The position numbers and the translations under genes are program-made. Of a stretch of DNA of 64,000 nt, positions 3,750 to 49,017 are shown piece by piece; the stretch's first letter is position 1, and each line of letters opens with the position of its first letter. This stretch comes from an uncultured Croceitalea sp. (GTDB lineage: Bacteria > Bacteroidota > Bacteroidia > Flavobacteriales > Flavobacteriaceae). The notes below the pieces were generated by a model. It did not search any database. It was not told where the DNA came from and worked only from the letters and a program-made list of their open reading frames with translations. The DNA is taken from positions 1,798,001 to 1,862,000 of the forward strand of contig CANLXH010000001.1 of the NCBI GenBank assembly GCA_947495075.1. The letters are read 5' to 3'.

Positions 3750-3771
3750 TTTGAACAAACGATTGTTCAAA
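3750..3771. promoter_or_regulatory. Operator palindrome, site 1 (receptor/lacI)
   Basis: TTGAACAA-ACGA-TTGTTCAA is an inverted repeat with 8-base arms, extended by one T/A pair. It lies between the divergent receptor and LacI genes, 136 bases from one start and 151 from the other. Central CG with symmetric arms is typical of LacI-family operators. The position suggests autoregulation plus control of the receptor. Confidence 0.8.
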
Positions 3772-3922
3772 TATAACTATTATTTCAAAACAACCAAATT
3801 TTGAAAATATTAATAGTAGATTTCCCTTAAAATTATTACTAGAAAAGCCTTATTTTGCAGTGAAGTTCAAACGAAAAAATGCTACTATAAATCATTACGA
3901 TTTTGTACTTTCACAATACTAT

Positions 3923-4957
3923 ATGGAACTAAAAGAAGCCAAGACCCTTAAAGATTTAGCGAAGATTACCGGATTTACCGAATCAACAATTTCAAGAACG
4001 TTGAACGGAATCGGGACAAAATACCGCATCAGTAAGGACACCCAAAAAAAAATAATCGAAGCCGCTAAAGAAGCCGATTTTTCGTTTAACGAGAATGCCC
4101 GTGGCCTTAGATTAAAGAAAACCCTGACCATTGGGTTTATTGTTCCAGATATTTCGAATTCATTCTTTGCTAAAATGGCATCATTGGTCGAGCGTGAAGC
4201 AAGGTTTCATAAATATGCCATTTTTCTCTGCGATAGTGACAACAGCACAGAAGTGGAAAAGTCATCTATTACGCTATTGCAGAAAAGAAAAGTTGATGGT
4301 ATTATAGTTTGTCCTATTGGTCTGGAATCAGAGCATCTAGTCAAATTATATAAAGAGACACCTTTGGTTTTAGTTGACCGTTATTTTCCACAAATAGATA
4401 TCCCCTTTGTGACATCTAATGATGTTTTAGACTCCTATAAAGTGGTACAGCATCTCATATCAAAAGGACATAGAAATATTGCATGTATTCAGGGGGTGGA
4501 GCATACATCTCAAAATGATATGAGAATAGAGGGTTACAAAAAAGCCCTAAAGGATAATGATATAGCTTTTGACCCTAAACTACTTATCGGGAACTCCTTT
4601 AGCGAAGAGAATGGCTACAATGCTGCACAGCAGATTATAGGGATGCCCAAAACAAAAAGACCCACAGCTATTTTCTCTTTGAGTAGTATTATTACTTTGG
4701 GTGCGCTTAAATCCTTTACCGAAGCTGGTTTAAAAATTCCAGAGGACTTCTCAATCGTATCTTTTGATGAACAAGAATACTCAGCACTCCTTGCCACACC
4801 ATTAACTACAATTGGACAACCAAAAGAAGAAATGGGAACCAAAGCTTTTAAAATGCTACTGGATCAGATGGATTCCGAAAAGAAAAAGAACCTAAAACAA
4901 AAGGGAGTACTATTGCCTACACAATTAAACTTCAGGGATTCAATAAAGGCATTATAA
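3923..4957 (+). CDS. LacI-family transcriptional regulator of the purine locus (inferred)
   Basis: The protein is 344 residues from the ATG chosen here. The N-terminus reads TLKDLAKITGFTESTISRTL, a LacI helix-turn-helix, followed by a hinge (NENARGLRL) and a periplasmic-binding-like effector domain starting TIGFIVPDISNSFFAKM. A GTG 63 bases upstream would add 21 residues with no family counterpart, so the ATG directly before the HTH is preferred. It is the only full-length LacI protein in the window and lies beside one of six matching palindromes. It is therefore the best candidate to bind them all. The ligand is unknown; a purine, nucleoside or allantoin-type compound is inferred. Whether it represses or activates cannot be told. 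Confidence 0.9.
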   Translation: MELKEAKTLKDLAKITGFTESTISRTLNGIGTKYRISKDTQKKIIEAAKEADFSFNENARGLRLKKTLTIGFIVPDISNSFFAKMASLVEREARFHKYAIFLCDSDNSTEVEKSSITLLQKRKVDGIIVCPIGLESEHLVKLYKETPLVLVDRYFPQIDIPFVTSNDVLDSYKVVQHLISKGHRNIACIQGVEHTSQNDMRIEGYKKALKDNDIAFDPKLLIGNSFSEENGYNAAQQIIGMPKTKRPTAIFSLSSIITLGALKSFTEAGLKIPEDFSIVSFDEQEYSALLATPLTTIGQPKEEMGTKAFKMLLDQMDSEKKKNLKQKGVLLPTQLNFRDSIKAL

Positions 4958-5061
4958 CATTACTCTTTCTTTTTTCCTCTGACTACTTTTTAAGGAACTT
5001 CAAGAAACTCTATATATTTTAGTCCGATTTTTAGAAGACCACACTATTATATCATTATTCA

Positions 5062-5093
5062 CAATAATAGAACAATCGTTTGTTCTATTATTG
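5062..5093. promoter_or_regulatory. Operator palindrome, site 2 (allC-allE)
   Basis: This is the longest of the six sites. Fourteen-base arms, CAATAATAGAACAA and its exact complement, flank TCGT. It ends 59 bases before the allantoate amidohydrolase start. It shares the core GAACAA-TCGT-TTGTTC with the other sites. Confidence 0.8.
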
Positions 5094-5152
5094 ATTTTCG
5101 TCTATATTGCGGATAAAAGTATCACATAACATTAGTGAAGTAAATACATAGA

Positions 5153-6391
5153 ATGAAACTTAGAACCGATAGAGTTATAGACCGATTAAATGCATTGGGA
5201 GCTATTAGCGATAGCGAAAACTGCATCAATAGGGCTTATGGCACAAAGGCGCATGCGGCATCAGGAGATTTGCTCATGACTTGGATGCAAAAAGTAGGAT
5301 TACAAACCCATCGTGACACTATAGGTAATATTAAGGGGGTTCTCCCCTCCCACGCTATTGATGCGAAACATTTTATCATAGGTTCTCATTATGATACGGT
5401 TTTCGATGCGGGTAAATATGATGGCCCTCTGGGAATACTTTTAGGGTTGGAGATGGTACAATATATTATCGATAAAGATTTACAAATGCCATTTCATTTG
5501 AACATTATTGCTTTTGCCGATGAGGAAGGTTCTAGGTTTAATACTGCCTATCTGGGGAGTTCGGCAATTGCAGGGTTTTTTGAAAAATCCTGGTTGCAAA
5601 GAAAGGACGATGAAGGAATTTCATTGGAGACGGTAATTCAAAAGAATTCCGGTATTTGCAGCAACATAGACTCCGATTCCATTTCCAAAGAGAATTGCAT
5701 AGGTTATTTTGAAGCACATATCGAACAAGGTCCAGTACTCTGTAATGAGAATCTGTCCGTATGTCTTGTGAATGGTATTGCTTCACAAACTAGAGTGGAC
5801 GTGCATTGGACGGGTATTAGTGGCCATGCCGGAACCTACCCGATGAACCATAGAAACGATGCATTATGTGCCGCTGCAGAATTTGCTTTGGTAGTAGAAA
5901 GTATCGGAAAAGAATATGATGAAAAATTGGTTTCTACCATTGGTAAATTAAACGTTATACCCAATACCCCGAACGTAATTCCTGGTAAGGTCGAACATAC
6001 TCTGGATATTCGAAGTCTTGATGATAAATTTCTAACTGAGATAGGTCAAATTTTAGAACAAAGGGCTAAGGAAATTTCAAAGCAGCGAAATGTGAAGCTA
6101 GTATGGAATATTATGCAGACCAATACAAGTGTTCAATGCGACAAAAATTTAAAGAGATGTCTGAAAATCGGTATCGAGAAAGCGGGCATCCATCGTGTTT
6201 TAGAAATTCCCAGCGGAGCGGGTCATGATGCAGTAATGATTTCTAAAATAGCTCCAGTATCAATGCTTTTTATACGATGTAAAGATGGCATCAGTCACAA
6301 TCCGTTGGAATACGTTACTCCGGAGGACATTGAAAAATCGATAGAAGTATGCGATAATTTCATCATGGAACTTATAAATCAGAACAATTAA
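5153..6391 (+). CDS. allC: Allantoate amidohydrolase (M20 peptidase family)
   Basis: Predicted to hydrolyse allantoate to ureidoglycine, CO2 and ammonia in the cytosol. The 412 residues match the AllC/HyuC amidase family. Visible motifs are GSHYDT with metal ligand His79, DGPLG with Asp90, ADEEGSRF with catalytic Glu124 and ligand Glu125, HIEQGPVL with His189, and a C-terminal GISHNPLE. The family also contains N-carbamoyl-L-amino acid hydrolases. The neighbouring allE and the allantoinase in the facing operon make allantoate the likely substrate. It is the first gene of a two-gene unit with operator site 2 in front, and allE follows after 9 bases. Confidence 0.88.
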   Translation: MKLRTDRVIDRLNALGAISDSENCINRAYGTKAHAASGDLLMTWMQKVGLQTHRDTIGNIKGVLPSHAIDAKHFIIGSHYDTVFDAGKYDGPLGILLGLEMVQYIIDKDLQMPFHLNIIAFADEEGSRFNTAYLGSSAIAGFFEKSWLQRKDDEGISLETVIQKNSGICSNIDSDSISKENCIGYFEAHIEQGPVLCNENLSVCLVNGIASQTRVDVHWTGISGHAGTYPMNHRNDALCAAAEFALVVESIGKEYDEKLVSTIGKLNVIPNTPNVIPGKVEHTLDIRSLDDKFLTEIGQILEQRAKEISKQRNVKLVWNIMQTNTSVQCDKNLKRCLKIGIEKAGIHRVLEIPSGAGHDAVMISKIAPVSMLFIRCKDGISHNPLEYVTPEDIEKSIEVCDNFIMELINQNN

Positions 6392-6400: not shown

Positions 6401-7165
6401 ATGAACGATATAAAACTTACCTCGATTTCCACTACGGTTTTCGAAAGAGACCATGCTTTATTAACCGGTGACGGTTTTGTTAATAGTGTCTATCCCGGCT
6501 GGACAGATTGCGAGGTCAATGTAGTTATCAACGAAGCCATGGGAGCAGGCTTTTGTCAGTTATTGGTTACCCCTGAAAAGCATGGAATTCTTAAAGGGCA
6601 AAACATAGTAACACAAATCTTCTTTTATGTTGTCAAAGGATCTTCAACCCTGCAATTAGACAATGGCCAAATAGAAACGTTGACGAAAGGGTCTTATGCT
6701 TATATTCCGATAGGTCAGTCTTACCTATTCAATGGATTTGAAGCCAACACTCAAATCTTGACTTTTCACAAGACATTTGAACCCTTGGAAGGCTATTCAG
6801 TGCCCGAGATTATTGTTTCGCACGAATCAAAAGTACCGCAGACCATCTACTGTGATGACCCTGACTTATTAATGCAGAACCTATTGCCCGACCAAGAAGA
6901 TATGGCATTCGATATGGCAATCAACATATTCACCTATAATCCCGGAGCAAATCTTCCTTTTGTTGAAACCCATATTATGGAGCACGGCCTAATGTATTTG
7001 CAAGGACAAGGTATTTATAGACTCGCTGATAAATGGTATCCAGTGAGAAAAGGGGATTGTATCTGGATGGCTCCCTACTGTCCACAATGGTTTGGAGCTT
7101 TGGGTACAGAACCCGCAGTCTATATCTATTACAAAAACGTGAATCGCTTCCCAATTAAACCCTAA
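6401..7165 (+). CDS. allE: (S)-ureidoglycine aminohydrolase (bicupin)
   Basis: Predicted to convert (S)-ureidoglycine to (S)-ureidoglycolate and ammonia. The 254 residues form two cupin halves. The C-terminal half has the family signature ETHIMEHGLMYLQGQGIYRL followed by YPVRKGDCIWMAPYCPQW, which carries the Mn-binding His/Glu residues. The first half (FFYVVKGSSTL, GSYAYIPIGQ) is the structural cupin. It follows allC closely and ends before a strong bidirectional terminator. With PucG in the facing operon, two alternative fates of ureidoglycine are encoded: hydrolysis here or transamination there. Confidence 0.92.
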   Translation: MNDIKLTSISTTVFERDHALLTGDGFVNSVYPGWTDCEVNVVINEAMGAGFCQLLVTPEKHGILKGQNIVTQIFFYVVKGSSTLQLDNGQIETLTKGSYAYIPIGQSYLFNGFEANTQILTFHKTFEPLEGYSVPEIIVSHESKVPQTIYCDDPDLLMQNLLPDQEDMAFDMAINIFTYNPGANLPFVETHIMEHGLMYLQGQGIYRLADKWYPVRKGDCIWMAPYCPQWFGALGTEPAVYIYYKNVNRFPIKP

Positions 7166-7295: not shown

Positions 7296-8408
7296 TTATA
7301 GTATCTCTTTCAAAGCCCCGATAAGCATGTTCACATGGTTTTTGGTGCAGCTTTCACCCATGATTCCAATTCGCCAAATCTTACCAGCAAAATCACCCAA
7401 GCCACCCCCTACTTCAATATTGAAATCGTTTAAGAGTGTGCTTCTCAATTGTGCTTCGTCTGTAACTTCGTTTGGTAAATAAACAGAATTCAAATTGGGC
7501 AACCTGTGTTCAGCCTTGACCAAATAGGTGAAACCTAAACTTTCTAATTCCCTTCGGAGATGTAAATGTACGTTTTGATGTCTTTCCCATCTGTTTTTCA
7601 ATCCTTCTTCCAAAACCAAACTTAATGCTTCGTGCATAGCGTAAACCGAAGAAACGGGAGCGGTGTGGTGGTATGCCCTTTTCGCTCCTGCCCAATAATT
7701 TTTTACTAAGTTCAAATCAAGAAACCAACTTTGCACTTGAGTTTTACGAGCTTCAAGAGCTTCGACCGCTCTAGGTGAAAAACTTACAGGTGACAAACCC
7801 GGAGGCGCACTTAGATTCTTTTGAGTGCCACTATATATGGCATCAATACCCCACTCATCTACTTTTAAAGGGACACCGCACCAAGAGGTTACCGCATCTA
7901 CCACAAGTAACGAATTTGCATTGTGAACTAGATCACTAATTTCTTCTAAAGGTTGTAAAGCTCCCGTGGAAGTCTCTGCATGCACCAGCGCTACCAATTT
8001 GGGATTTGGGCATTTTTCTAAGGTGGATTTTACTTGTTCCGCATTTGTAACCTCGCCCCATGATGTATTGATTTTATGAACCACAGCGCCACAGCGTTGG
8101 GCAATATCAACCATACGCCCACCAAAAACCCCATTTATGCATATGATGCATTCATCACCTGGCTCTAGTAAATTGACCAAACAGGTTTCCATACCGGCAC
8201 TCCCAGGGGCAGAAACGACAAAAGTCAGCTCGTTCTTTGTCAAAAGAGTCTGTTGCACCATGTCCTTTACTTCGTCCATCATTTGAACGAAATGCGGGTC
8301 TAAATGACCAATCAAAGGAGAGGACATTGCTTTCAAAACCCTTGGATGTGCATCAGATGGCCCCGGGCCCATTAAGAATCTTTTTGGTGGATTAAATGAA
8401 TAACTCAT
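7296..8408 (-). CDS. pucG: (S)-ureidoglycine-glyoxylate aminotransferase-like PLP enzyme
   Basis: A class-V aminotransferase of 370 residues. The N-terminus FLMGPGPSDAHPRVL and the PLP-lysine motif YSGTQKNLSAPPG (Lys197) are those of the alanine-glyoxylate/ureidoglycine-glyoxylate transaminase group. Known PucG enzymes move the amino group of ureidoglycine to glyoxylate, giving oxalurate and glycine. Alanine- or serine-glyoxylate aminotransferase activity cannot be excluded from sequence. It is the last gene of the eight-gene xdh-pucG operon, 13 bases after xdhC, which supports the purine role. Confidence 0.82.
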   Translation of the reverse strand: MSYSFNPPKRFLMGPGPSDAHPRVLKAMSSPLIGHLDPHFVQMMDEVKDMVQQTLLTKNELTFVVSAPGSAGMETCLVNLLEPGDECIICINGVFGGRMVDIAQRCGAVVHKINTSWGEVTNAEQVKSTLEKCPNPKLVALVHAETSTGALQPLEEISDLVHNANSLLVVDAVTSWCGVPLKVDEWGIDAIYSGTQKNLSAPPGLSPVSFSPRAVEALEARKTQVQSWFLDLNLVKNYWAGAKRAYHHTAPVSSVYAMHEALSLVLEEGLKNRWERHQNVHLHLRRELESLGFTYLVKAEHRLPNLNSVYLPNEVTDEAQLRSTLLNDFNIEVGGGLGDFAGKIWRIGIMGESCTKNHVNMLIGALKEIL

Positions 8409-8421: not shown

Positions 8422-9228
8422 TTAAACTTGTTTTAAATAATTCCTATTCTGCTTCGGTTCCAGACCATAGTGAACCTGTAAAAGCTGACCCACTACGGCA
8501 ATTGCAATTTCTTTAGGTGTTTCTCCTCCGGTATTCAGTCCAATCGGGCATACGACTTTACTCATCCCTTCAGGAATGGACATCTCTTTAATCAACATAT
8601 TATTAAACCGTACACATTTTGTTTTGCTACCGATCAACCCTAAATACTTTGTCTTTTTTGGTATTGCCGTTGCGATAATCTCAAAATCAATCGTATGGTC
8701 ATGGGTCAAAACCAGAACATAACAGTTTGAACCCCAGTTCACGGCATCAGTAAAGGTTTTAAAATCTCTGATATCAACCTGACTTAATTGGATATCGGAA
8801 TCTAGTTCTAAATCTTTAAACCAATCCTTACGGGAATCAATCAATTTGATTTTAAAAGGGGTGCCTACCAATATCTTGGCTATTTCAACACCAATATGTC
8901 CTGCTCCGAACAAAAAGAGCTCTGGTAATCCGTTCATAGGTTCTATTAGTAGTTCTACTTTCCCGCCACAGCATTGCTCAAATTCAGGACCTAATGTAAA
9001 CGTAGCTTCCGAAATACAATTCTTCTTTATCGCTTCTACCGCTTTGTCAATGACCTCAAACTCCATCTTCCCTCCACCGACCGTGCCATGGAATTCATTC
9101 TCTCCTGCTACTATCATTCTTGAGCCTAAAGCACAGGGTGCAGACCCCAGTACTTTTGTGACAGTGACTAGTGCTACGGGTTCATACTTTTGTTTGTATT
9201 CATTTAGTACTTGAATCCAATCAAACAT
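8422..9228 (-). CDS. xdhC: XdhC/CoxI-family molybdenum cofactor maturation protein
   Basis: The 268 residues contain the XdhC N-terminal pattern VTVTKVLGSAPCALGSRM, then GTVGGGKMEFEV, and a Rossmann-like half with FGAGHIGVEIAKIL. The end is CPIGLNTGGETPKEIAIAV. The family binds molybdenum cofactor, promotes its sulfuration and inserts it into xanthine dehydrogenase. It lies in the xdh operon between the DUF6986 gene (3-base gap) and pucG, as expected for an accessory factor of XdhAB. Confidence 0.92.
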   Translation of the reverse strand: MFDWIQVLNEYKQKYEPVALVTVTKVLGSAPCALGSRMIVAGENEFHGTVGGGKMEFEVIDKAVEAIKKNCISEATFTLGPEFEQCCGGKVELLIEPMNGLPELFLFGAGHIGVEIAKILVGTPFKIKLIDSRKDWFKDLELDSDIQLSQVDIRDFKTFTDAVNWGSNCYVLVLTHDHTIDFEIIATAIPKKTKYLGLIGSKTKCVRFNNMLIKEMSIPEGMSKVVCPIGLNTGGETPKEIAIAVVGQLLQVHYGLEPKQNRNYLKQV

Positions 9229-9231
9229 GTT

Positions 9232-10671
9232 TTATGCTTTCTTTTTCTTCAACTTTCGGTTCTTCAAAATAGTAACGAAAGAGCGGCTTCTTACTTCTTC
9301 CAAGGTCAAACCCGTTGCTAATACTTCTTCTTCTGATATAGCACCGCTATTCAATCCCTTCAAAAAATAATTCAGTAACCCCTGACCAGTGGCGGCATCA
9401 TCAAATGTATCGCCTATAAGGGTAGCTCTTGCAGCTGTCTCCATAAAGCTCTTTAACCGCATCACGGCATCGTCATAACTCTCTAAGAAAAAAGCAAAAA
9501 CCGCAGTATAGCGCATAGGCAATTGTGCAGGGTTTAAATCCCAACCTTGATACAGGCCTTTGTATAATGAATGTCTGATATGCCCATATCCCTTTCGCCA
9601 CGCTCGATGCACGACCATTTTATTTTCAGCTTCCTGCTCCTTGGAGAGCTCCCCACGATGCGGACCTATGGGCATGGTGTTCGTCGCGCCATCAGATAGC
9701 CAAATTCCCGTATGGGATAAAGCTACCTTGGTAGTATAGTGCGCAAAATCACACACTCCGTGGTCCATTTCTTGGTATTTCGCTGTGATATTGTTGGATG
9801 CCGTATAATCATAGGTTCCAAAATGAGTAGCAATACATCTTCCCTTACTGGCCGTAATAAATCGCAAAAGTGGATTAGTACCTTCAGCATCCATAACGGC
9901 CTGGGTGGTCTCCACCATAATTTCCATCTTTAGGGAATTTTGGGGTAGTGCAAAAGTTTTTTCCAGTACTTCCAGGAACAATACTAAGGCGGTCACTTGC
10001 TCCGGAATGGTTACTTTAGGAAGCATCACTACAAAATTATCAGGCAATTTTCCATCAGTTTTTAGAAGTAAGGTGGTCAGAAAGATATCCAATGTTCGCA
10101 ATCCTCTATTTTTAAGTTCTTCTGTAAAAGGCTTAATCCGTATGCCGATAAATGGGGAAAGCGTATTTTCTTGCATGCCCTTTGCGACTTCTTCGGCAGC
10201 GTTCATAGCAGTTTGATCTTCCTCGGCATTGGAGCGATTACCAAACCCATCTTCAAAATCTATTCTAAAGTCTTCAACTGGTTCCGCATTTAGTTTAACA
10301 ATTACCTTATTATAAATCTTGTAACAAAAACCTGCTTCATGATTTTTGAGTTCGGCATAATCGATTCCTGATAAATCTGAAATCATTTGTTGCTGGCTAT
10401 CTACATCATCTGGCAGTCTTTCATACCCTTTTAGTTGGAACGCTTTTGCAAACGCTATACAATTAGGGGCATAGTGCAATAGCGATTTAATAGCAACCTT
10501 ACCAAGATTTTGAGGCGTTTCGGAATTGAACAGATGTGCACCACCGTAAACGGTATGCACAGGTTGCCTGTCTTGTCGGTCGCCTTTGTAGAGTTTGTTG
10601 AATGCCTGATTTGCATTTTCTAAATCCTTAAAAATAATGTCTTTGGTATGGTTTTTAATGCTCTGATTCAT
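9232..10671 (-). CDS. DUF6986-type protein, HpcH/HpaI aldolase/citrate-lyase superfamily
   Basis: A 479-residue protein that I recognise as the DUF6986-type group, often annotated as an aldolase/citrate lyase or phosphoenolpyruvate kinase. Visible blocks are VHTVYGGAHLFNSETPQNLG near residue 40, DFRIDFEDGFGNR with acidic residues of the type that bind Mg in citrate lyase/malate synthase barrels, IGIRIKPF, and MEIMVETTQAVMDAEG. Biochemistry is not established to my knowledge. Its place inside the urate-allantoin operon, between the HIU/OHCU fusion and xdhC, suggests it handles a carbon end product such as glyoxylate or ureidoglycolate. That is inference. Confidence 0.75.
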   Translation of the reverse strand: MNQSIKNHTKDIIFKDLENANQAFNKLYKGDRQDRQPVHTVYGGAHLFNSETPQNLGKVAIKSLLHYAPNCIAFAKAFQLKGYERLPDDVDSQQQMISDLSGIDYAELKNHEAGFCYKIYNKVIVKLNAEPVEDFRIDFEDGFGNRSNAEEDQTAMNAAEEVAKGMQENTLSPFIGIRIKPFTEELKNRGLRTLDIFLTTLLLKTDGKLPDNFVVMLPKVTIPEQVTALVLFLEVLEKTFALPQNSLKMEIMVETTQAVMDAEGTNPLLRFITASKGRCIATHFGTYDYTASNNITAKYQEMDHGVCDFAHYTTKVALSHTGIWLSDGATNTMPIGPHRGELSKEQEAENKMVVHRAWRKGYGHIRHSLYKGLYQGWDLNPAQLPMRYTAVFAFFLESYDDAVMRLKSFMETAARATLIGDTFDDAATGQGLLNYFLKGLNSGAISEEEVLATGLTLEEVRSRSFVTILKNRKLKKKKA

Positions 10672-10688: not shown

Positions 10689-11561
10689 TTAACTGCCTTT
10701 ATACGTAGAAAAACCGTAAGGGCTAATCAACAACGGAATGTGATAGTGTCCTTTATCAGTTATTGAAAAAGTGATTTGTACTTGGGGATAAAAGGACTTT
10801 AACCCATTGTTTTTTTGATAGGATGCCGTTTCGAAAACCATTTCATACTCCCCTATTTTCAAATTTCTTCCAGGAGGAAGCAAATCGGAAACCCTACCAT
10901 CTGAATTGGTAACACCTGTGCTAACAAGTTTCTTACCACTATCTGTAATTTCCTTTAAAGAAACCAGAAGCCCTACCGCAGGAATCCCTTTTGCCGTATC
11001 TAGCGCATGTGTTGTAATGTGGCTTTTCAAGTTTTTTTCAAGGGCAACTTCTTCTATTAATTTTATCAAGCGTATTACCGTGATCTTATGCTGCTCGTTC
11101 ATGGCGATGCGGAGCTCTTCTTCAGGCAGATTCAATAGCCTTTTCTGAATTATAGCTAGCATTTCTTCTGCTGATTTACCGCTAGCACTTACAATAAATA
11201 TGTAACCGAACTTTGATTCATATTCACTATTTGCCTTCTTTAAGGCAAGCAACGTATCCATATCAGCATCATCTACTTTTGCTTGTTCTTTACCGGCCCA
11301 TTCTTTGGTATGCGCGAACTTTTGTTTTAAGCTTTCAACATCCCCTATTTTCGGATGTCCTTTAAACGCCTCTAGGTAGTCTTCTTTGCCACATTTCGAA
11401 TACCAAATCGATGCTGCTTTTGCAATCAAATCACTACTTGAAGTGTATGGTCTTTGATCTGCCAATAGTTTCGCCCATTTGACGGATACGCAACACTTAT
11501 TTAGTGCTTCGGTAACTTGTTCCTCGCTCTGTGTATTCAATTCGTTTAAGGTTGTCATCAT
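10689..11561 (-). CDS. Fused OHCU decarboxylase - 5-hydroxyisourate hydrolase
   Basis: One protein carries the two steps after urate oxidation. Residues 1-170 are OHCU decarboxylase (FKGHPKIGD with catalytic His69, then KEWAGKEQA). Residues 178-290 are the transthyretin-like HIU hydrolase: HITTHALDTAKGIPA with His185, GRVSDLL, YHIPLL, and a C-terminal YKGS where the family has YRGS. Together they turn 5-hydroxyisourate into (S)-allantoin. The same domain order is known from plant allantoin synthase. Its product feeds allantoinase two genes upstream, and its substrate comes from PuuD. The gene is separated from puuD by 101 bases of hairpin-rich DNA. Confidence 0.93.
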   Translation of the reverse strand: MMTTLNELNTQSEEQVTEALNKCCVSVKWAKLLADQRPYTSSSDLIAKAASIWYSKCGKEDYLEAFKGHPKIGDVESLKQKFAHTKEWAGKEQAKVDDADMDTLLALKKANSEYESKFGYIFIVSASGKSAEEMLAIIQKRLLNLPEEELRIAMNEQHKITVIRLIKLIEEVALEKNLKSHITTHALDTAKGIPAVGLLVSLKEITDSGKKLVSTGVTNSDGRVSDLLPPGRNLKIGEYEMVFETASYQKNNGLKSFYPQVQITFSITDKGHYHIPLLISPYGFSTYKGS

Positions 11562-11662: not shown

Positions 11663-13069
11663 TTACTTTGATGCACCTTGGTTCATCCAACAATTGATTA
11701 TATCACGCTCTTCTTCCAACATTCCTGTTTGGTTATTATTAAAGGGCATGTTTTTACTCAATACCGCTCTTTGATAAATCTTCTCTCTTAGATTATAGAT
11801 TTGTTCAGGTGTATCGTACATTACCCCGTTGGGAGCAACTTTCCAAACCTCATCCTCAGGGTTCTTGGAATGGCAGACCACACATCTATTTTTTACAATA
11901 CTGACCACTTCAGTAAAGGAAACCTCGGTAGTACAGTTTTCATATTTAGGTGGTTCGGGTGCCGTAGTAAAGGCTACCCCCAATAGGATTATGACGGATA
12001 TAGGCATAATCCACACTGAGAGTTGTCCTTTCTCACGAAGGTTTAAATAATGCTTTATACCAGCAGTTCCAACAGTTATTGCAATAAGTACTGCCCATTC
12101 GTAATCGTTCCCAAAGGTGCTGGGAAAGTGGTTGCTTATCATCACAAACAGCACCGGCAGTGTAAAATAGTTGTTGGTGTATGACCTCATCATCGCGGCC
12201 TTACCATCCTTGGGGTCTGGTAATTCTCCTTTTTTGGCAGCATTGACCATACGTTTTTGCCCTGGAATAATCACGAAGAATACATTGGCTGCCATCAAAG
12301 TCCCTAAGAAAGCACCGAAGTGAATATAGGCCGCACGACCACTAAATACCTGACAATAAAACCACGCAAAAAAGAAAACCAGAACGGTAATGGCAATTGT
12401 AAATGTTGTTTTGTTCTTGCTCAGATGTTTACAAATTTGGTCATATAGAATCCACCCGATGACCAAAGAAAAAACACTAATACTTATTGCGGTAAATGCT
12501 GAAATATTCAACACCTCTGGGTCGATAAGCATCGACTTCGCATTGAAATAGTATACGATTATCAAAAGCGAGAACCCAGATAGCCAAGTGAAATAAGCTT
12601 CATATTTAAACCAATGGAGATCTTTAGGAATCTTTTTAGGCGCCAACTTGTATTTCTCTAAATAATAAAACCCGCCACCGTGAACGGCCCATAAATTTCC
12701 AGCAAGTTCATCTCGCACATTTTCTGTGCGGTTGAGAGCATTCTCTAGAAAAACAAAATAAAACGAGGCGCCAATCCAAGCGATACCAAATGTGATATGA
12801 ATGACGCGTACAACAAGGTTCATCCATTCCATAAAGTGACCTTCCCATATGGTTCCCTTTAAAAAAAGATAAACGATGCCGAGTCCGCTCAAAGCAGCGA
12901 ATACAAGAAGCGCATAGAACCAATTTTGAGATGTTTGTAGCGAAGTAACTTTAGCTTCATTGCCCTGCTGCTTGAAGTGCTTAATCATCTGGCGAATTTT
13001 GTACGTTCCCAAAACGACAAATACAAAAAGGAAAAGCCAGGTAAAGAGTATCATTATTTTCATCATCAT
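11663..13069 (-). CDS. puuD: Membrane urate hydroxylase with cytochrome c domain
   Basis: Predicted to oxidise urate to 5-hydroxyisourate at the cytoplasmic membrane, passing electrons to its own cytochrome. The 468 residues have about eight or nine hydrophobic segments, including WMNLVVRVIHITFGIAWIGA and a later block of the PuuD type. A C-terminal c-type heme site follows: CVVCH at 396-400, with Met441 in SKNMPF as likely axial ligand. PuuD replaces soluble UaZ or FAD-dependent HpxO, neither of which is seen here. The start overlaps the allantoinase end by 4 bases, so the pair is probably translationally coupled. Confidence 0.92.
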   Translation of the reverse strand: MMMKIMILFTWLFLFVFVVLGTYKIRQMIKHFKQQGNEAKVTSLQTSQNWFYALLVFAALSGLGIVYLFLKGTIWEGHFMEWMNLVVRVIHITFGIAWIGASFYFVFLENALNRTENVRDELAGNLWAVHGGGFYYLEKYKLAPKKIPKDLHWFKYEAYFTWLSGFSLLIIVYYFNAKSMLIDPEVLNISAFTAISISVFSLVIGWILYDQICKHLSKNKTTFTIAITVLVFFFAWFYCQVFSGRAAYIHFGAFLGTLMAANVFFVIIPGQKRMVNAAKKGELPDPKDGKAAMMRSYTNNYFTLPVLFVMISNHFPSTFGNDYEWAVLIAITVGTAGIKHYLNLREKGQLSVWIMPISVIILLGVAFTTAPEPPKYENCTTEVSFTEVVSIVKNRCVVCHSKNPEDEVWKVAPNGVMYDTPEQIYNLREKIYQRAVLSKNMPFNNNQTGMLEEERDIINCWMNQGASK

Positions 13070-14442
13070 CCCTCTATTGAATTATTGACAGTTGCTACTT
13101 TATGCGCATTTCGCTCTAGAAGTTCACCCTTGTTTTTATTGATACATTTCGAGGCCTGAACAACATGACATCCATTTACGAATGTATCAGTAACTCTTCC
13201 TTTCAGTTTCCGTCCCAAATATGGAGTTGCTTTGTGCCTATGGTATATTATTTCTTCGGTTAGTACGTATTCTGAAGTATCATCCCAAATAACGATATCA
13301 GCATCATACCCTTTCTTTAGAAAACCCTTTTGGGATTCCAGACCTAAAAATTCCGCTGGTTTTTGGGTCAACATCGGGATTAGTTTTTCTAAGGGAATAC
13401 CCCGCGATTTGAATTCTGTATTCATTACCGAAAGGGTGAATTGTAATCCAGAAATACCTCCCCAAGCAGCAAAGAAATCACCGGAACCCAATTGTTTGAT
13501 TTCAGCAGGTGCGGGAGAATGGTCGGAGGCTATGAAATCGATAATTCCTTTTTCAATTGCATCCCACAACAGTCCATTATTTTTCTTTTCCCGTATGGGA
13601 GGGGCACATTTGAAAATCGGTGTCTCATCTGGAATTTCTTCTGAATTAAAAAAAAGGTAGTGCGGACAGGTTTCCACACTCAACTTATCCGTTTTTGATT
13701 TTCGGTAAGCCAATTTTTCAATCGATTCCGATGCGGACAAATGTACAATATGGACCTTGATATCGAATTCCCTTTGAATTTCCAATGCCAGGTCTATGGC
13801 ATTATTCTCCCATCTTTGTGGCCTAGAATTAAGGTATTCTTGATAGCTTTTCGGATTTTGTACTTCTAGCACTTCACCATCTTCTAATTCACAATGCAGC
13901 AATAAGGGAACATCATACTGCTTAAGAACGGGAGCAATGGCTTTAAGATGCTCAGCATTAACCTTGGGAAATTCATCTATACCGGAATGCGACAAAAACC
14001 CCTTAATGCCGAATGCACCGAACGTGATAAGGTGCTCTATTTCATCGGCATTGAGAGGTATAAGTCCGCCATAAAATCCGCAGTTTACATGTAATTTTTC
14101 CTTTGCAGCTTCCTTTTTTTTCCGAAACGCATCTATAGTTGTCGTTACCGGACTTGCATTTAGTGGCATTTCTATCAGCGTAGTAATTCCACCAACAGCT
14201 GCAGCCTGTGTAGCTGTGTCAAAACCTTCCCACTCTGTGCGGCCAGGTTCGTTGATGTGAACATGGGCATCAATAATACCCGGCATGATGATGAAATTAC
14301 CGTAAGAAGTAAAGGGAACATCATCAATACGTTTTTGTCCTACAAAAACGTAATGTATACTGCGGTCCTTTATATAAAGTGTAGCTTCCTGAAATTTATT
14401 TTCAATAAAACAACGCTTGCTATGAATAAGAAAAACAGCCAT
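13066..14442 (-). CDS. allB: Allantoinase
   Basis: Cyclic amidohydrolase opening allantoin to allantoate. The 458 residues show GIIDAHVHINEPGRTEWEGF (metal ligands His60 and His62), the carbamylated lysine in GAFGIKGFL (Lys147), LLLHCE, VHLSAS and IASDHSPAP with the catalytic Asp. Related dihydropyrimidinases and dihydroorotases share the fold. The EPGRTEWEGF stretch and the operon place it as allantoinase. It starts 4 bases after the xdhB stop and overlaps puuD by 4 bases. Confidence 0.92.
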   Translation of the reverse strand: MAVFLIHSKRCFIENKFQEATLYIKDRSIHYVFVGQKRIDDVPFTSYGNFIIMPGIIDAHVHINEPGRTEWEGFDTATQAAAVGGITTLIEMPLNASPVTTTIDAFRKKKEAAKEKLHVNCGFYGGLIPLNADEIEHLITFGAFGIKGFLSHSGIDEFPKVNAEHLKAIAPVLKQYDVPLLLHCELEDGEVLEVQNPKSYQEYLNSRPQRWENNAIDLALEIQREFDIKVHIVHLSASESIEKLAYRKSKTDKLSVETCPHYLFFNSEEIPDETPIFKCAPPIREKKNNGLLWDAIEKGIIDFIASDHSPAPAEIKQLGSGDFFAAWGGISGLQFTLSVMNTEFKSRGIPLEKLIPMLTQKPAEFLGLESQKGFLKKGYDADIVIWDDTSEYVLTEEIIYHRHKATPYLGRKLKGRVTDTFVNGCHVVQASKCINKNKGELLERNAHKVATVNNSIEG

Positions 14443-14446: not shown

Positions 14447-16765
14447 CTATCGGTTATATAATCCCAATAAGACTTTTTCAGGAGTCATTGGTGCATGAAA
14501 CTTCATTTCATAATTAGGGTTGAAGGCTTTCATAGCATTTTGAATAGCAAAATAAGCACCTATACCATACATCAAGGGTGGCTCCCCCACCGCTTTTGAT
14601 TTTAAAATGGCCATATCATTACCATCTGTTTCCAATGGTAAAACCTCAACTTCTTTTGGCACTGAATATATGTCCGGTACTTTGTACGTAGATAGCGCAT
14701 TCGACAACAATCTACCATTATCAGCATAGGAGATTTCTTCCAAAGTCATCCATCCAATACCCTGAATGAGCGCCCCTTCGACCTGCCCCAAATCAATACC
14801 AGGATTCATACTTTTTCCGTAATCGTGAACAATTTTTACACTATCAAATTCATAGGTGCCACGAAGGCAATCTACTGTTGCAGTAACGATTGCAGTACCG
14901 TAGACATGGTATGCGAACGGATGCCCTTTTTCCTTGCTTTTATCAAAATGGATTATGGGCGTAGCGTAATGGGCATTTTCTGTCAATGCCACACGCTGCG
15001 CCATGGCTTTGAAAATCAATTGCTCCCAAGTAATTTCTGTTTTCTCTCCTTCGACATAGACCCATTCATTTTTTAATTCTACCGTTTTTTCATCAACTTT
15101 ATATTCCTGCACAACAATATTTTTAAGTCGATTCAGAAGATTTTCGCAGGCCATGACAAGTGCCTTGCCATTGAGATCGGCCGTAGAACTCGCCGCCGAG
15201 GGCGATGTATTAGCAACTCGGGTGGTATTTGTACTTTCTATTTTGACCTTTCTACCGTTTACTGAAAAAATATCAGCGGCAATCTGGAGTAATTTGGTGT
15301 TCACTCCCTGACCCATTTCAACGGCGGCCGTACTGATACCGATACTCCCATCTTGATAAATATGTACCAAAGCACGGGCGTGGTTCATTTGGGTATTGGT
15401 AAAGGAAATACCGAAAGTTATAGGCATTACTGCGAGACCTTTTTTAGTCACGGGACTATTGCTATTGAATTCATTTATTTTTTCTCGCGCCTGTTCAAGC
15501 TGAAACTTTTCTTTGGCAGACATCCACGAATTTTTAGCCTCTACCTTGGTAGCCACTTGCCCATAAGAAAATTCCTGATTCTCTTCTAACAAATTAGCCT
15601 CCTGAATAGCACTGGGCAAAACCCCTAATTCAGATGCAGCTTGGGCGATAGCGGATTCTATTACGAACATGCCCTGAGGCCCTCCAAAACCGCGAAACGC
15701 CGTGTTCGGAGGAAGGTTTGTCTTGCAACTATACACAGTTGATTTTACGTTAGGTACGTAATAACTATTGGTCGCATGAAAAAGGGTGCGTTCTGCAATG
15801 GCCGGAGATAAATCAGCGGCGGCTCCTGCATTCTGAAGTAGTTCTACCTCATAGGCCAAAATCTTCAAATCCTTTGATAGTCCAATTTTATAGGTGCTTT
15901 CATAAGGATGTCTCTTTCCTGTCATTCGTAAATCATCATGACGGTCCAAAATCAATTTCACGGATTGGTTCAAATGCTGTGCTGCCAATGCTACCATGAC
16001 CGCCCAAGGAGTCGCTTGGTCTTCCTTACCTCCAAATCCACCTCCCAATCGGGTTACATCTATTTCTATTTTATGCATGGGTAAGCCCAAAACTTGAGCC
16101 GTAGTTTTTTGAACGGCAGTAGGGCCTTGAGTTGAAGAAACAATTCTGATGTTACCATTTTCCAATGGTTCTGCATAGGCACCTTGTGTCTCTATATAGA
16201 GATGTTCTTGCCCATTTGAGAATGATTCTCCCTCAAAAACGTAGTCACATTTAGCAAATGTGCTATCTACATCGCCTAAATTGAAAGACCTTGGCGCACT
16301 TATAAAACTACCCTTATCTTTTGCCTGCTTAGCAGTTGTTATGACGGGAAGCTCTTCATAATCCGCTACGATTAGCCTACGGGCTTTTTTTGCTATAGTT
16401 TTTGTTTCCGCTATTATCAAAGCTATTGGTTGGCCCCAAAAATGTACCTCACCTTCTGCAAATAAAGGTTCATCTGGAAAAATACCGCCTATCTGATTCT
16501 CACCGGGTACATCCTTTGCCGTTAAAATACAAATGACACCGGCCAAATCGAGAGCTTTGGAATAGTCGATATTTTTGATTTTACCGTGGGCACAATTCGA
16601 ATCGAAAACCACTGCATTTAACGTACCCTCTCGGACGTTTACATCATCTACGTATATAGATTCTCCCCTAAGGTGGGTGTAGGAGTCAATATTCCGTATT
16701 CCCCTATCAATAGGTTTTGAAATCTTTTTCACTTTTGGCGGGTGTAGGGTCTTAACTAGCTGCAT
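14447..16765 (-). CDS. xdhB: Xanthine dehydrogenase, molybdopterin-binding subunit
   Basis: The 772 residues form the large Moco subunit of the two-subunit bacterial XdhAB type. Key blocks are LGGGFGGKEDQATPWA, NTAFRGFGGPQGMFVIES with the substrate-site Arg, EMGQGVNTK, and the C-terminal KAVGEPPLMYG with the catalytic Glu. With XdhA it oxidises hypoxanthine and xanthine to urate. Its start lies 14 bases inside the xdhA end, consistent with coupled expression. XdhC in the same operon would mature the cofactor. Confidence 0.95.
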   Translation of the reverse strand: MQLVKTLHPPKVKKISKPIDRGIRNIDSYTHLRGESIYVDDVNVREGTLNAVVFDSNCAHGKIKNIDYSKALDLAGVICILTAKDVPGENQIGGIFPDEPLFAEGEVHFWGQPIALIIAETKTIAKKARRLIVADYEELPVITTAKQAKDKGSFISAPRSFNLGDVDSTFAKCDYVFEGESFSNGQEHLYIETQGAYAEPLENGNIRIVSSTQGPTAVQKTTAQVLGLPMHKIEIDVTRLGGGFGGKEDQATPWAVMVALAAQHLNQSVKLILDRHDDLRMTGKRHPYESTYKIGLSKDLKILAYEVELLQNAGAAADLSPAIAERTLFHATNSYYVPNVKSTVYSCKTNLPPNTAFRGFGGPQGMFVIESAIAQAASELGVLPSAIQEANLLEENQEFSYGQVATKVEAKNSWMSAKEKFQLEQAREKINEFNSNSPVTKKGLAVMPITFGISFTNTQMNHARALVHIYQDGSIGISTAAVEMGQGVNTKLLQIAADIFSVNGRKVKIESTNTTRVANTSPSAASSTADLNGKALVMACENLLNRLKNIVVQEYKVDEKTVELKNEWVYVEGEKTEITWEQLIFKAMAQRVALTENAHYATPIIHFDKSKEKGHPFAYHVYGTAIVTATVDCLRGTYEFDSVKIVHDYGKSMNPGIDLGQVEGALIQGIGWMTLEEISYADNGRLLSNALSTYKVPDIYSVPKEVEVLPLETDGNDMAILKSKAVGEPPLMYGIGAYFAIQNAMKAFNPNYEMKFHAPMTPEKVLLGLYNR

Positions 16766-18176
16766 GGGTCAAAAAATCTTGTAGTTTAAATTTGTTGGGA
16801 AACAATTCGGTAAAATGGGCCATAAACAATTGTCTTGCCAATAATCGTTTGTATTCCTTAGTGCCTCGCACATCAGAAATAGGGGAAATCTCTTCTTGGA
16901 GAATTTCGGCTGCCAATGCTATCGTGAGCACGTCTAAAGACTTTCCTGCTAAATACTCAGAGGTTTTCTGCAAATACTTTGGTATTGGAGAGACACCACC
17001 CATTGCAACATGCGCACTTACAATAGAACCCGTATTACTTAGCTCAACACTGATTGCGGTATTTACACTAGCAATGTCCAAATAGGTACGCTTGCATACC
17101 TTCTCAAAATTAAATGAGGTATCTGGTAAAAGCACTTCAAAACTGATTTCCGACAATACCTCTCCCTCTTGCAAATCGTATGTTTTATACCCTTGATAAA
17201 AGTCTTTGAGCAGTATCTGTCTCTTACTATTATCCTTTTTTAGAGTGACGGTACTATTGAGCGCCAAAAAGAAAATAGTCATATCGCCAATAGGCGATGC
17301 ATTAACCAAGTTGCCACCAAAGGAGGCCATATTTCGAATAGGTTCCGAAGAAACCAAGGTAAGATGACGGTCTAGCTTCGGAAACATCTTCTGGATGTGA
17401 AGGTTATTCCAGAACTCGGTAACCGTAGTGTTGGCACCAATGAAACATCTATTTTGTTTTATATGGATACCCTTGAACTTTTGTTCGGAAGCAACCAAGA
17501 AAACATCTTCTTCTATTAGGCTCTCAGGTCGCTGCACATAAAGGTCGGTTCCACCGGACACTACTAGTAAAGGCTTTCTACTATTTTTGACATTATGGCT
17601 TATTTTTTCAAGCCTATGAGGAATATCTAGGAAGTACTCTGGTATGAATCGATTCTTGACTAGCCATGAAATCTTATTATCAGATTCAATGTCACTTAGT
17701 TGCTCCGCTACTTCTTTTGCTGCTCTTTCAATGGATTTATAACCTGTACACCTGCAAATATTGCCACTTATGGCTGCTAAAACATTATCGTAGTTTTTCT
17801 CTTTTTCGGAAAAGGCAAATCCAGTAAGCGATAGTGCAAAGCCCGGAGTACAAAACCCGCATTGAGTGGCATAGTTTCGCTTCATGGCCTCTTGGGCAAC
17901 ATTTAATTCATTCGTAAGGTTTACCCCTTCTATGGTAACTATATGTTTGCCTTGGGCATTCCCCAAAGGAGAAATACAAGATGTTATACTTTGATAATCA
18001 ATACTGCCATTACTATTTAAAGTCCCTACCAGTGCAGTACAGGCGGCGCAGTCTCCCTCTCGGCAACCGATCTTTGTTCCCGTTAGGCGTTGCTGATACC
18101 GAACAAAATCGAGCAGCGTCATACCCGATTTTGTTTCAGTTCGGATGGTTTTATTATTTAAAATAAATTCAATCAT
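16752..18176 (-). CDS. xdhA: Xanthine dehydrogenase, Fe-S/FAD subunit
   Basis: First gene of the urate operon. The N-terminal plant-type [2Fe-2S] cluster has Cys38, Cys43 and Cys46 in GCREGDCAACTALVG plus Cys67. The second cluster has Cys106 and Cys109 in QCGFCTPGF and Cys141 and Cys143 in NICRCTGYKS. After a linker comes the FAD domain (about residues 175-460) with GGTDLYVQRP and PIRNMASFGGNLVNASPIGD. It passes electrons from the molybdenum site of XdhB to NAD+ or another acceptor. Operator site 3 lies 50 bases before its start. Confidence 0.95.
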   Translation of the reverse strand: MIEFILNNKTIRTETKSGMTLLDFVRYQQRLTGTKIGCREGDCAACTALVGTLNSNGSIDYQSITSCISPLGNAQGKHIVTIEGVNLTNELNVAQEAMKRNYATQCGFCTPGFALSLTGFAFSEKEKNYDNVLAAISGNICRCTGYKSIERAAKEVAEQLSDIESDNKISWLVKNRFIPEYFLDIPHRLEKISHNVKNSRKPLLVVSGGTDLYVQRPESLIEEDVFLVASEQKFKGIHIKQNRCFIGANTTVTEFWNNLHIQKMFPKLDRHLTLVSSEPIRNMASFGGNLVNASPIGDMTIFFLALNSTVTLKKDNSKRQILLKDFYQGYKTYDLQEGEVLSEISFEVLLPDTSFNFEKVCKRTYLDIASVNTAISVELSNTGSIVSAHVAMGGVSPIPKYLQKTSEYLAGKSLDVLTIALAAEILQEEISPISDVRGTKEYKRLLARQLFMAHFTELFPNKFKLQDFLTHAAS

Positions 18177-18226: not shown

Positions 18227-18246
18227 TTGAACAAACGTTTGTTCAA
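18227..18246. promoter_or_regulatory. Operator palindrome, site 3 (xdh operon)
   Basis: TTGAACAAACGTTTGTTCAA is a perfect 20-base palindrome with the shared core. It ends 50 bases before the xdhA start. The flanking unit downstream of pafA has no start here, so it can only serve the xdh operon. Confidence 0.85.
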
Positions 18247-23049: not shown

Positions 23050-23066
23050 AGTTTTGGATTTTTGGT

Positions 23067-47517: not shown

Positions 47518-47558
47518 AAAAGAAAAAGCTCCAAATAGGAACAATTGAAGGATGAATT

Positions 47559-48467
47559 TTATCTTTTAAAACGATTTAGAAATTGAGTTCGATTTTTTAC
47601 ATCTGTCTTTTTAAAAATATTCGAAGCGTGTTTGGAAACAGTGTTCTCCGCAATGAATAGCTCTTCCCCAATTTCCTTATAAGTCATACTATCTAAAATT
47701 GATAAGGCAATTTCAATCTCCCTGCGGGTAAGTCCTTGGTTGAGAATTTTTGGTAATAACATTTTTTCCTTCTTATCCCTATAAAAATCCAATACCTCAT
47801 TTAATTTACTCTTGTTTCTTAACAGATATAAGTACCTATCGATTTCCATTGCAGTTATTGCAAAAAATGAAATATTAATAACGCTAAAAGTTAGCCATTG
47901 ATAATCGCCAATTATTGTCAGAACAGGAAGAAGGCCAATACAAGTGATACTTATAAATGAAAGCCTAGTGCGCCTAACAAAGAAACTGTTGGAGTTCTGT
48001 TGTTGAGAAATTTTCTTAAAAAAGGCCCAACATATGTAAAGACAAATCACGGCAACAGGAACGGAAAAATAAAGTCTTGCTAAATCAATAGAATCAGTCA
48101 AAAAGTAAGTCAATAAAAACAGAATCAAAAAACATCCTAAAACATAATAGGCAATATTTGAAACGGTCAGATGAAACTTTAGAAAAACGATATCATATTC
48201 GTTGTACATATAATGTACGACATACACACACATTGCAATGGCGACCCCATATGTAATTATGTACTGTACAATAAATGGACCTGGAAAGTTTTCAATGGGC
48301 AAGAGACCCCCTGTCAAATTATACAACACGAACAGAAATCCTAATATCAAGAATCTATTTATGTTATTATGCTTCAACCAACGTGACTGGAAAAACGCGA
48401 ATAATACAATGAACATGTCCAAGAGGAGATAGAAAAAAGTAGTCCAATGCATTGGGGTTCCAAACAT
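47559..48467 (-). CDS. Membrane LuxR-family transcriptional regulator
   Basis: The 302 residues have about seven hydrophobic segments (residues 5-220). A C-terminal LuxR/GerE helix-turn-helix follows: GLTRREIEIALSILDSMTYK then EIGEELFIAENTVSKHASNI. No kinase or receiver domain is present, so it is probably a one-component membrane sensor acting directly on DNA. It follows the asparaginase-like gene by 12 bases on the same strand, so both should share operator site 6. Confidence 0.85.
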   Translation of the reverse strand: MFGTPMHWTTFFYLLLDMFIVLFAFFQSRWLKHNNINRFLILGFLFVLYNLTGGLLPIENFPGPFIVQYIITYGVAIAMCVYVVHYMYNEYDIVFLKFHLTVSNIAYYVLGCFLILFLLTYFLTDSIDLARLYFSVPVAVICLYICWAFFKKISQQQNSNSFFVRRTRLSFISITCIGLLPVLTIIGDYQWLTFSVINISFFAITAMEIDRYLYLLRNKSKLNEVLDFYRDKKEKMLLPKILNQGLTRREIEIALSILDSMTYKEIGEELFIAENTVSKHASNIFKKTDVKNRTQFLNRFKR

Positions 48468-48479
48468 ATCAAGAGTTTC

Positions 48480-48968
48480 TTAACGTTCTTTTTCAAATCG
48501 ATTTGTAAGCTTATTTTTAACAACATTGTTCCAAGAAAATGTATTACCATGCATTGCTATATACACACCATTATTGAGCCTCTGTGCTGCATTAAAAGCA
48601 TAGCCTAGATTGAAATGTGCATCTGTATTTGGTTCGTGACCGGGTATAAATGCCCCAACAAGTACAATGGTCTTATCCAAACCAAGATTACCTAAATACT
48701 TAGCCGTCTTAATCATGGTTATTGTGCCATGTGTAATTAGTATATTCTTGGTCAAGGAGAGTTCTATCGATTTTTTCAAAATTTTCCTATCGCCATTTGT
48801 TATAAGCCGGCTATCCTTTGAAAACACTTTCTTGATTGAGAATTGAAACGTTAAATCCAAGTTCTCAAAAAATTTGTTGATTTGAATAGGAGGATTTTTA
48901 GACTCCTCATCTATGTCTTCATAATTCAATCCCTCAATGGTACCACCAGTTGTTAAAATGTCAATCAT
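48480..48968 (-). CDS. Short asparaginase-domain protein
   Basis: From ATG 48968 it has 162 residues, about half an asparaginase. The N-terminal nucleophile loop is MIDILTTGGTIEG. The second catalytic block reads ILITHGTITM; in full asparaginases this is THGTDTM, so the Asp of the catalytic Thr-Asp pair is replaced by Ile. Short proteins of this kind are common in flavobacteria and of unproven activity. An ATG six codons earlier would leave only three bases to the operator and is less likely. Operator control hints at a link to purine or nitrogen metabolism. Confidence 0.75.
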   Translation of the reverse strand: MIDILTTGGTIEGLNYEDIDEESKNPPIQINKFFENLDLTFQFSIKKVFSKDSRLITNGDRKILKKSIELSLTKNILITHGTITMIKTAKYLGNLGLDKTIVLVGAFIPGHEPNTDAHFNLGYAFNAAQRLNNGVYIAMHGNTFSWNNVVKNKLTNRFEKER

Positions 48969-48989
48969 AAAAATTAGTTTTGCCATATC

Positions 48990-49017
48990 TAATTAGAACA
49001 AACGTTTGTTCTAATTA
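48990..49017. promoter_or_regulatory. Operator palindrome, site 6 (asparaginase-like/LuxR pair)
   Basis: A perfect 28-base palindrome: TAATTAGAACAAAC and its exact complement. The core GAACAAACGTTTGTTC is identical to site 3. It lies directly before the asparaginase-like gene, about 21 kb from the nearest other site (site 5), on the far side of the conjugation genes. Confidence 0.82.

Follow-up and report, generated by a model that had tools for sequence, protein, structure and literature searches.

Local regulons of the LacI family, as described in part of the survey by Ravcheev et al (2014, PMC4052901), use even palindromes of 16-22 bases with a central CG, the 16-base form being canonical, and their sites lie mostly 30-140 bases upstream of start codons. 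In the same parts of that survey, the Bacteroides phylum is covered by a single taxonomic group, and E. coli PurR is given as controlling purine and pyrimidine synthesis with purine co-repressors (PMC4052901). In the present study, we analyzed 64,000 nucleotides (hereafter the window) from an uncultured Croceitalea sp. of the Flavobacteriaceae (assembly GCA_947495075.1, contig CANLXH010000001.1, positions 1,798,001 to 1,862,000 of the forward strand), in which the gene of a 344-residue LacI-family protein stands beside one of six copies of a CG-centred 16-base palindrome. We are rather confident that the best explanation of the whole is a local LacI-type repressor of five of these sites (sites 1-5), which would control nucleotide and nucleoside scavenging and respond to ribose. 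The locus has in common with the local regulons of the above survey, so far as its text on them goes (PMC4052901), the LacI helix-turn-helix (HTH) with a sugar-binding domain of the periplasmic-binding-protein type, the CG-centred 16-base palindrome, the spacing of the sites and a site before the regulator's own gene. Compared with those regulons, it adds an outer-membrane receptor and the route from xanthine to ureidoglycolate; the nucleoside examples AdeR, HpxR and UriR are known to us from that source by name only (PMC4052901). A prior description of such a regulon was not found in the titles or abstract starts of the open-licence PMC literature.

The closest NCBIfam matches of the 344-residue protein are the RbsR, CytR and PurR models, with RbsR the best, and all fall below their equivalog cut-offs. 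Like E. coli RbsR, the protein is linked to ribokinase and has ribose-type residues at most pocket positions (9 of 11, against 8 of 11 in RbsR). Unlike it, the window protein is only 29% identical, scores below both RbsR equivalog models (218 bits against 382 for NF047341 and 192 against 531 for NF007743), and has other outer operator bases than the RbsR operator before rbsD (AGCGAAACGTTTCGCT). CytR is the LacI protein of nucleoside uptake in E. coli; it is 31% identical to the window protein, which lies below the CytR equivalog cut-off, and CytR itself keeps 6 of the 11 pocket positions. With E. coli PurR the system has in common a LacI protein linked to purines and an operator core (CAAACG/CGTTTG) also found in the copy at the purR locus. 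It differs from PurR in that its targets are degradation genes and in that the residues corresponding to PurR R190 and T192 are absent; the PurR equivalog model gives 204.5 bits against a cut-off of 501.

The pattern GAACAAWCGWTTGTTC is present in the window as six exact copies, all of them non-coding, as follows:

Site 1: 3753..3768, GAACAAACGATTGTTC, between the receptor gene (minus strand) and the lacI gene (plus strand)
Site 2: 5070..5085, GAACAATCGTTTGTTC, before the allantoate amidohydrolase and ureidoglycine aminohydrolase genes
Site 3: 18229..18244, GAACAAACGTTTGTTC, before the xanthine dehydrogenase operon
Site 4: 27825..27840, GAACAAACGATTGTTC, before the ribokinase operon
Site 5: 27979..27994, GAACAATCGATTGTTC, before the phosphoesterase and adenosine-deaminase-like genes
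Site 6: 48996..49011, GAACAAACGTTTGTTC within a perfect 28-base palindrome, between an integrase gene and an asparaginase-like gene; membership doubtful

Site 1 lies inside an open stop-to-stop frame 5' of the LacI start codon and outside the 344-residue gene, and the symmetry of site 2 extends over 16 bases on each side with one mismatch. An initial annotation of this DNA had described six non-coding inverted repeats with a shared core, each preceding a distinct unit. The repeats were recovered as exact 16-mers with starts within 8 bases of those it gave, and the distinct units stood as well, but seven gene directions, not six, are served, since site 1 sits between the divergent receptor and LacI genes. 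The distances from site to start codon, in site order and with site 1 counted twice, are 138, 154, 67, 52, 93, 71 and 9 bases; five of these seven are within the 30-140 bases usual for local LacI-family regulons, the 154 bases being those from site 1 to lacI.

At up to three mismatches the window holds seven matches, namely the six sites and one 3-mismatch place at 2697, against a mean of 1.27 and a largest value of 4 in 100 dinucleotide shuffles. By base or dinucleotide composition, 1e-4 exact matches are expected per window and about 0.006 per genome. In the whole genome (3,726,017 bases), only the six sites match GAACAAWCGWTTGTTC at 0-1 mismatch. Eight further places appear at exactly two mismatches, seven of them in stop-to-stop frames of at least 100 codons, and the reversed control pattern gives four matches at up to two; no remote target was found in the genome at 0-1 mismatch, and no regulon member was added from the 2-mismatch places. 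Among 397 genomes of the family, the source genome included, the exact motif has six copies in the source and one each in four others (G140, G107, G180 and G103), and the reversed control has three single matches. The copy of G103 lies within an open frame. In G140 (L122:4858-9466), the copy was observed between the gene of a 35% identical LacI protein and a set of nucleoside hydrolase, ribokinase and permease genes.

Relatives of the regulator are rare. Only the source genome and G004 (46% identical) have one at E<=1e-60 among 98 relatives, eight of which, with the source counted, belong to the same genus, and at E<=1e-70 there are eight in the 397 family genomes, the window included. Ten genomes were kept for comparison, that is, these eight and the two closest, G441 (an uncultured Flavobacteriaceae, LacI 84% identical) and G442 (an uncultured Aquimarina, 60%); from the seven loci of a scan of named genomes, five distant ones (28-35% identity) were left out of the count. 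In nine of the ten, the LacI gene has the strict palindrome GNNCAAWCGWTTGNNC next to it. In the fetched neighbourhoods of the LacI gene, ribokinase is present in eight of nine genomes (not in G262; G270 was not fetched widely) and nucleoside hydrolase in seven of nine (G000, G441, G442, G413, G148, G262 and G352).

The two closest genomes keep sites together with the units. In G442, the cluster is rearranged and lies on two contigs, and five of the six strict matches of the genome front regulon units: the receptor at 66 bases, the allantoate/ureidoglycine pair at 100, a deaminase at 233 and a deaminase-xanthine dehydrogenase operon at 29, the fifth lying in the gap between ribokinase and lacI. 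G441 has four strict matches: one before each of the xanthine dehydrogenase, ribokinase and allantoate units, and one elsewhere. Site 3 has a counterpart at the matching place in both. In G413 (LacI 49% identical), four sites stand around a SusC/SusD pair and the nucleoside and ribokinase genes, and five further strict matches lie elsewhere. The prediction of the initial annotation, a single LacI-type regulon that spans the receptor, the nucleotide/nucleoside and ribose genes and the purine-ring units, thus gains support from the conserved sites and the co-occurrence with the LacI gene, as far as sequences can tell. It was also observed that the operons of relatives carry a 157-residue gene of the cytidine/deoxycytidylate deaminase type (L047:9848-10321, L024:3967-4440), and in the window cluster no matching frame was found.

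The source genome has six matches to the LacI-type HTH, the 344-residue protein included, and one of the others, a 144-residue LacI-HTH protein (start 21622), sits within the ribokinase operon, so that the sites could in principle be bound by that protein or by another LacI paralogue. We regard this as very improbable. The cluster loci fetched from G441 and G442 retain the sites but contain no frame of at least 100 residues whose best match is the 144-residue protein; one paralogue has a distinct palindrome of its own, ATGTAAACGTTTACAT, twice in its 3.1-kb locus; and the motif goes with relatives of the 344-residue protein. In a tree rooted at the midpoint only, from which the paralogue C1_629138 (read without its HTH), the 144-residue protein and RbsB were left out, the LacI proteins of the window, G441, G442 and G413 group together with support, separately from three LacI paralogues of the source genome. 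The hinge sequence is ARGLRL. The recognition helix TESTISR is found in the three closest proteins, which have GAAC operators, and differs in four of the other LacI-type proteins of the genome, the fifth having been read without its HTH. STTTVSR occurs in G004, G262 and G132, with GCRC operators, and SPTTVSR in G148, both of which resemble the STTTVSH of PurR. A clean one-to-one pairing of helix with operator was considered and given up, as it is broken by G352 (GCAC operator, SISIVSR) and by G140 (exact GAAC operator, SISTVSR).

According to part of the text of PMC9723704, flavobacterial sigma-A promoters carry TAnnTTTG at -12 to -5. Within -50 to +60 of a site, the seven gene-facing directions of the window hold four perfect boxes of this kind, each ending on operator base 1; two belong to site 1, one per direction, and the others to sites 4 and 5. 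The upstream TTG is spaced by 19 and 21 at site 1, 18 at site 4 and 19 at site 5. By composition, a perfect box would stand at a given fixed offset in at least four of the seven directions with a probability of about 3e-8, an optimistic value, the offset having been noticed after the fact; in the relatives, 34 orientations of 17 sites gave seven perfect boxes, six of them at the same offset as in the window. Because the box ends on operator base 1, a repressor bound at sites 1, 4 and 5 would cover the start point, which fits repression. At site 2, there is a TAnnTTGY-type box, TATATTGC, 33 bases from the start of the site, and here the operator would cover the -33 region. No clear promoter box was seen around sites 3 and 6.

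The genes of the cluster, with families assigned by Pfam and NCBIfam profile matches, are as follows:

345..3614, minus strand: outer-membrane TonB-type receptor, 1089 residues (Pfam OMP_b-brl_4, CarboxypepD_reg, TonB barrel)
3923..4957, plus strand: LacI-family regulator, 344 residues (Pfam LacI HTH and periplasmic-binding-protein domain)
5153..6391, plus strand: allantoate amidohydrolase, M20 family (TIGR01879 subfamily model above its cut-off, allantoate models NF006775 and NF006771 slightly under theirs)
6401..7165, plus strand: (S)-ureidoglycine aminohydrolase (TIGR03214, 288 bits, cut-off 200)
7296..8408, minus strand: class-V aminotransferase, last gene of the xanthine dehydrogenase operon (Pfam Aminotran_5)
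8422..9228, minus strand: XdhC, xanthine dehydrogenase accessory protein (TIGR02964 over cut-off)
9232..10671, minus strand: DUF6986 protein, HpcH/HpaI-like (Pfam)
10689..11561, minus strand: OHCU decarboxylase fused to hydroxyisourate hydrolase (Pfam, NCBIfam)
11663..13069, minus strand: urate oxidase, Urate_ox_N type (Pfam E 2.4e-123; no NCBIfam match)
13066..14442, minus strand: allantoinase (TIGR03178, 498 bits, cut-off 358)
14447..16765, minus strand: xanthine dehydrogenase, molybdopterin subunit (Pfam)
16752..18176, minus strand: xanthine dehydrogenase, FAD/2Fe-2S subunit (Pfam)
18323..19984, minus strand: alkaline phosphatase PafA (NF042991, 659 bits, cut-off 650)
19996..21588, minus strand: aldehyde dehydrogenase family protein (Pfam)
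21622..22056, minus strand: 144-residue protein, LacI-type HTH only (Pfam, NCBIfam)
22081..24035, minus strand: split transketolase, two genes for the C- and N-terminal halves (Pfam, NCBIfam)
23912..24574, minus strand: fructose-6-phosphate aldolase/transaldolase (TIGR00875 over cut-off)
24575..25807, minus strand: nucleoside permease (TIGR00889 over cut-off)
25849..26790, minus strand: nucleoside hydrolase (Pfam IU_nuc_hydro)
26814..27731, minus strand: ribokinase (TIGR02152, 369 bits, cut-off 300)
28066..28983, plus strand: calcineurin-like phosphoesterase (Pfam)
29076..30608, plus strand: adenosine-deaminase-like protein (Pfam A_deaminase; NCBIfam deaminase models all below cut-off)

Gene spacing suggests a ribokinase operon of nine genes (27731 to 18323) and a xanthine dehydrogenase operon of eight (18176 to 7296). 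On the same basis, sites 1-5 would govern 23 genes in six units, namely these two operons, two two-gene units, the single receptor and the single lacI, a count that takes in the 144-residue protein and both transketolase halves. By family matches, the genes form a coherent pathway, in which the sugar arm consists of the nucleoside permease, nucleoside hydrolase, ribokinase, aldolase and split transketolase. The purine-ring arm consists of xanthine dehydrogenase with XdhC, urate oxidase, the fused hydroxyisourate hydrolase/OHCU decarboxylase, allantoinase, allantoate amidohydrolase and ureidoglycine aminohydrolase, and as predicted from these families it spans the steps from xanthine dehydrogenase to ureidoglycolate. 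The urate-to-ureidoglycolate breakdown of the initial annotation is present but understated, since the route starts at xanthine dehydrogenase and is accompanied by the class-V aminotransferase and the DUF6986 protein. PafA, the calcineurin-like phosphoesterase and the adenosine-deaminase-like protein would act on nucleotides and adenosine. The 144-residue protein, inside the ribokinase operon and with no match to a sugar-binding domain, may represent either a remnant or an additional small regulator.

In the model that we propose, the LacI protein (3923-4957) would bind as a dimer to the CG-centred palindrome at sites 1-5 and block six units: the receptor, lacI itself, the allantoate/ureidoglycine pair, the xanthine dehydrogenase operon, the ribokinase operon and the phosphoesterase/deaminase pair. 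Once nucleosides have entered the cell, the nucleoside hydrolase would free ribose, which, or a close ribosyl sugar, would bind the regulator and release it from its operators. Uptake, ribose use and purine-ring degradation to ureidoglycolate would then switch on together.

The choice of ligand was approached through the ribose-contact positions of RbsB and the purine-contact residues R190 and T192 of PurR, which are taken as the relevant ones and were placed by alignment. By this alignment, nine of the 11 RbsB positions are identical in the window protein. The relatives keep 7 to 10, E. coli PurR 6, the three full-length paralogues of the source genome 6 or 7 and a Parabacteroides LacI protein 5. 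Four are kept by the paralogue that was read without its HTH. The PurR residues R190 and T192 align to T and Q. The pocket thus appears closer to the ribose-binding RbsB than to PurR, and because of these residues and the ribokinase linkage, ribose is a likelier inducer than purines or urate, with about an even chance; the purines, urate or allantoin named in the initial annotation are not favoured by this comparison. A ligand of the other kind, a purine base, nucleoside or urate, seems unlikely to us; in a PurR-like form of this reading, a purine would act as co-repressor. It would go with the resemblance of the relatives' GCRCAAWCGWTTGYGC operators to that of E. coli PurR, as represented by the purR-locus copy AGGCAAACGTTTACCT, but the replaced R190 and T192 speak against it, as do the neighbours identified beside lacI in the five single-site genomes, which are ribokinase, nucleoside hydrolase and permease genes, and a catabolic pathway shut off by its own substrate would make little sense. 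For ribose as the ligand, the stronger proposal would be that ribose freed from nucleosides, and not any purine, induces the whole purine-ring pathway together with the outer-membrane receptor; we advance it tentatively, giving it slightly less than an even chance. If true, a pentose sensor would gate nitrogen release, and the cell would stay uninduced on free urate or xanthine alone.

The five single-site genomes (G004, G148, G132, G262 and G352; LacI 40-46% identical) have one PurR-like site of the GCRCAAWCGWTTGYGC type beside lacI. Ribokinase is found in four of the five, a permease in G004, G148 and G352, and nucleoside hydrolases in G148, G262 and G352, where scanned. Because this single site adjoins ribokinase and/or nucleoside-hydrolase genes, an older ribose/nucleoside regulator with a PurR-like operator was probably extended to the purine-ring genes in the present lineage.

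Several points weigh against the regulon as proposed. The binding of the LacI protein and the regulation are read from sequence, and the ligand is argued from presumed contact positions and an alignment, in which the D-R pair (RbsB D89 and R90) is also present in the paralogues of the source genome and in the Parabacteroides LacI protein. The same motif can occur at other LacI-linked operons, as in G107, where the exact copy lies 56 bases before an SDR gene adjoining a UxuA gene. The degenerate pattern by itself is unspecific: of its nine matches in G413, five lie away from the LacI gene, as do four of the five in each of G132 and G262. G270, whose LacI relative is 39% identical, lacks a strict site next to the gene and has only a 3-mismatch copy there; G441 has no strict site directly upstream of its LacI gene, where a 2-mismatch copy stands; and the five distant loci left out of the count have no match to the GAAC pattern at up to two mismatches. 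Both G441 and G442 are metagenome-assembled genomes. The promoter geometry is not uniform, as the edge-aligned TAnnTTTG is absent at sites 2, 3 and 6.

Site 6 requires separate treatment. Its neighbours are:

48480..48986, minus strand: short asparaginase-like protein, probably an element gene (Pfam Asparaginase N-terminal)
49165..50421, minus strand: tyrosine integrase beside tRNA-Pro (50653-50728) (family match)

This position between integrase and asparaginase-like gene is what would be seen if site 6 belonged to an integrative element and had no relation to the purine regulon, a reading to which we give an even chance. G180, a genome in which no LacI relative reached E<=1e-70, has an exact copy at the same tRNA-Ser/tRNA-Pro locus, 410 bases beyond an integrase that is 42-43% identical. 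The asparaginase-like gene has a homologue in 44 of the 397 genomes; in the 30 loci scanned, the window included, it adjoins a related integrase in four, the other three pairs being observed in G426, G270 and G440 (L085, L087 and L061). These three pairs have no site, however, and the 29 other fetched asparaginase-like loci have none at up to two mismatches. A general rule of integrase-linked palindromes was likewise dropped: among 29 other integrase loci, those fetched from the 122 of 397 genomes with an integrase match, none has a copy at 0-1 mismatch and one has a copy at two. Further, the 16 bases of site 6 are identical to those of site 3. Site 6 would probably be bound by the LacI protein too, and its role in the pathway is doubtful. 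No homologue of the asparaginase-like gene was found at E<=1e-5 in G441, G442 or G413, two of which are metagenome-assembled, and a second copy, 51% identical, lies elsewhere in the source genome. Thus, of the asparaginase-like unit that the initial annotation had counted as a member, the exact site stands and the membership is in doubt.

A CTnDOT-like integrative element would have an integrase, RteC and a complete Tra/Mob protein set flanked by attachment repeats. In the frames scanned, which were not all of those in the region around site 6, the integrase, RteC, TraG, TraM and a DUF4138 protein were found. No attachment repeat of at least 14 bases was found in the window and 40 kb to its left, and a mismatch-tolerant search gave the tRNA itself only. 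The tRNA-Ser/tRNA-Pro pair (50653-50856), beside a 7TMR-HD gene, carries different integrases here, in G001 (46% identical) and in G180 (42-43%), and is an integration hotspot. Between the Tra genes and RteC (39550-43323) lie a weak patatin match, below the curated cut-off, and a pentapeptide-repeat protein, possibly element cargo. To the left of the window (L088:15533-19328), four neighbouring proteins (by eye, sugar-kinase-like, aldolase-like and SDR types) compare with those of G001 at 99% identity for three and 92% for the fourth, the 7TMR-HD protein being 85% identical, which suggests recent exchange. A run of proteins of about 280 residues, UspA universal-stress-like by eye, was noted at L088:84-7049 and L089:19143-19994.

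Overall, the proposed switch is of an ordinary kind, and its unusual feature is how far it reaches, from ribose use and the outer membrane to complete degradation of the purine ring. It provides a candidate regulator, a precise operator and 23 predicted targets for the use of nucleotides and purines by this group of bacteria. The relatives form a series, at one end with one ribose/nucleoside operator and at the other with a purine regulon of several operons, along which the growth of such a regulon would be traceable. The question of whether ribose or a purine is the ligand bears on how such bacteria free ammonia from nucleic-acid debris.

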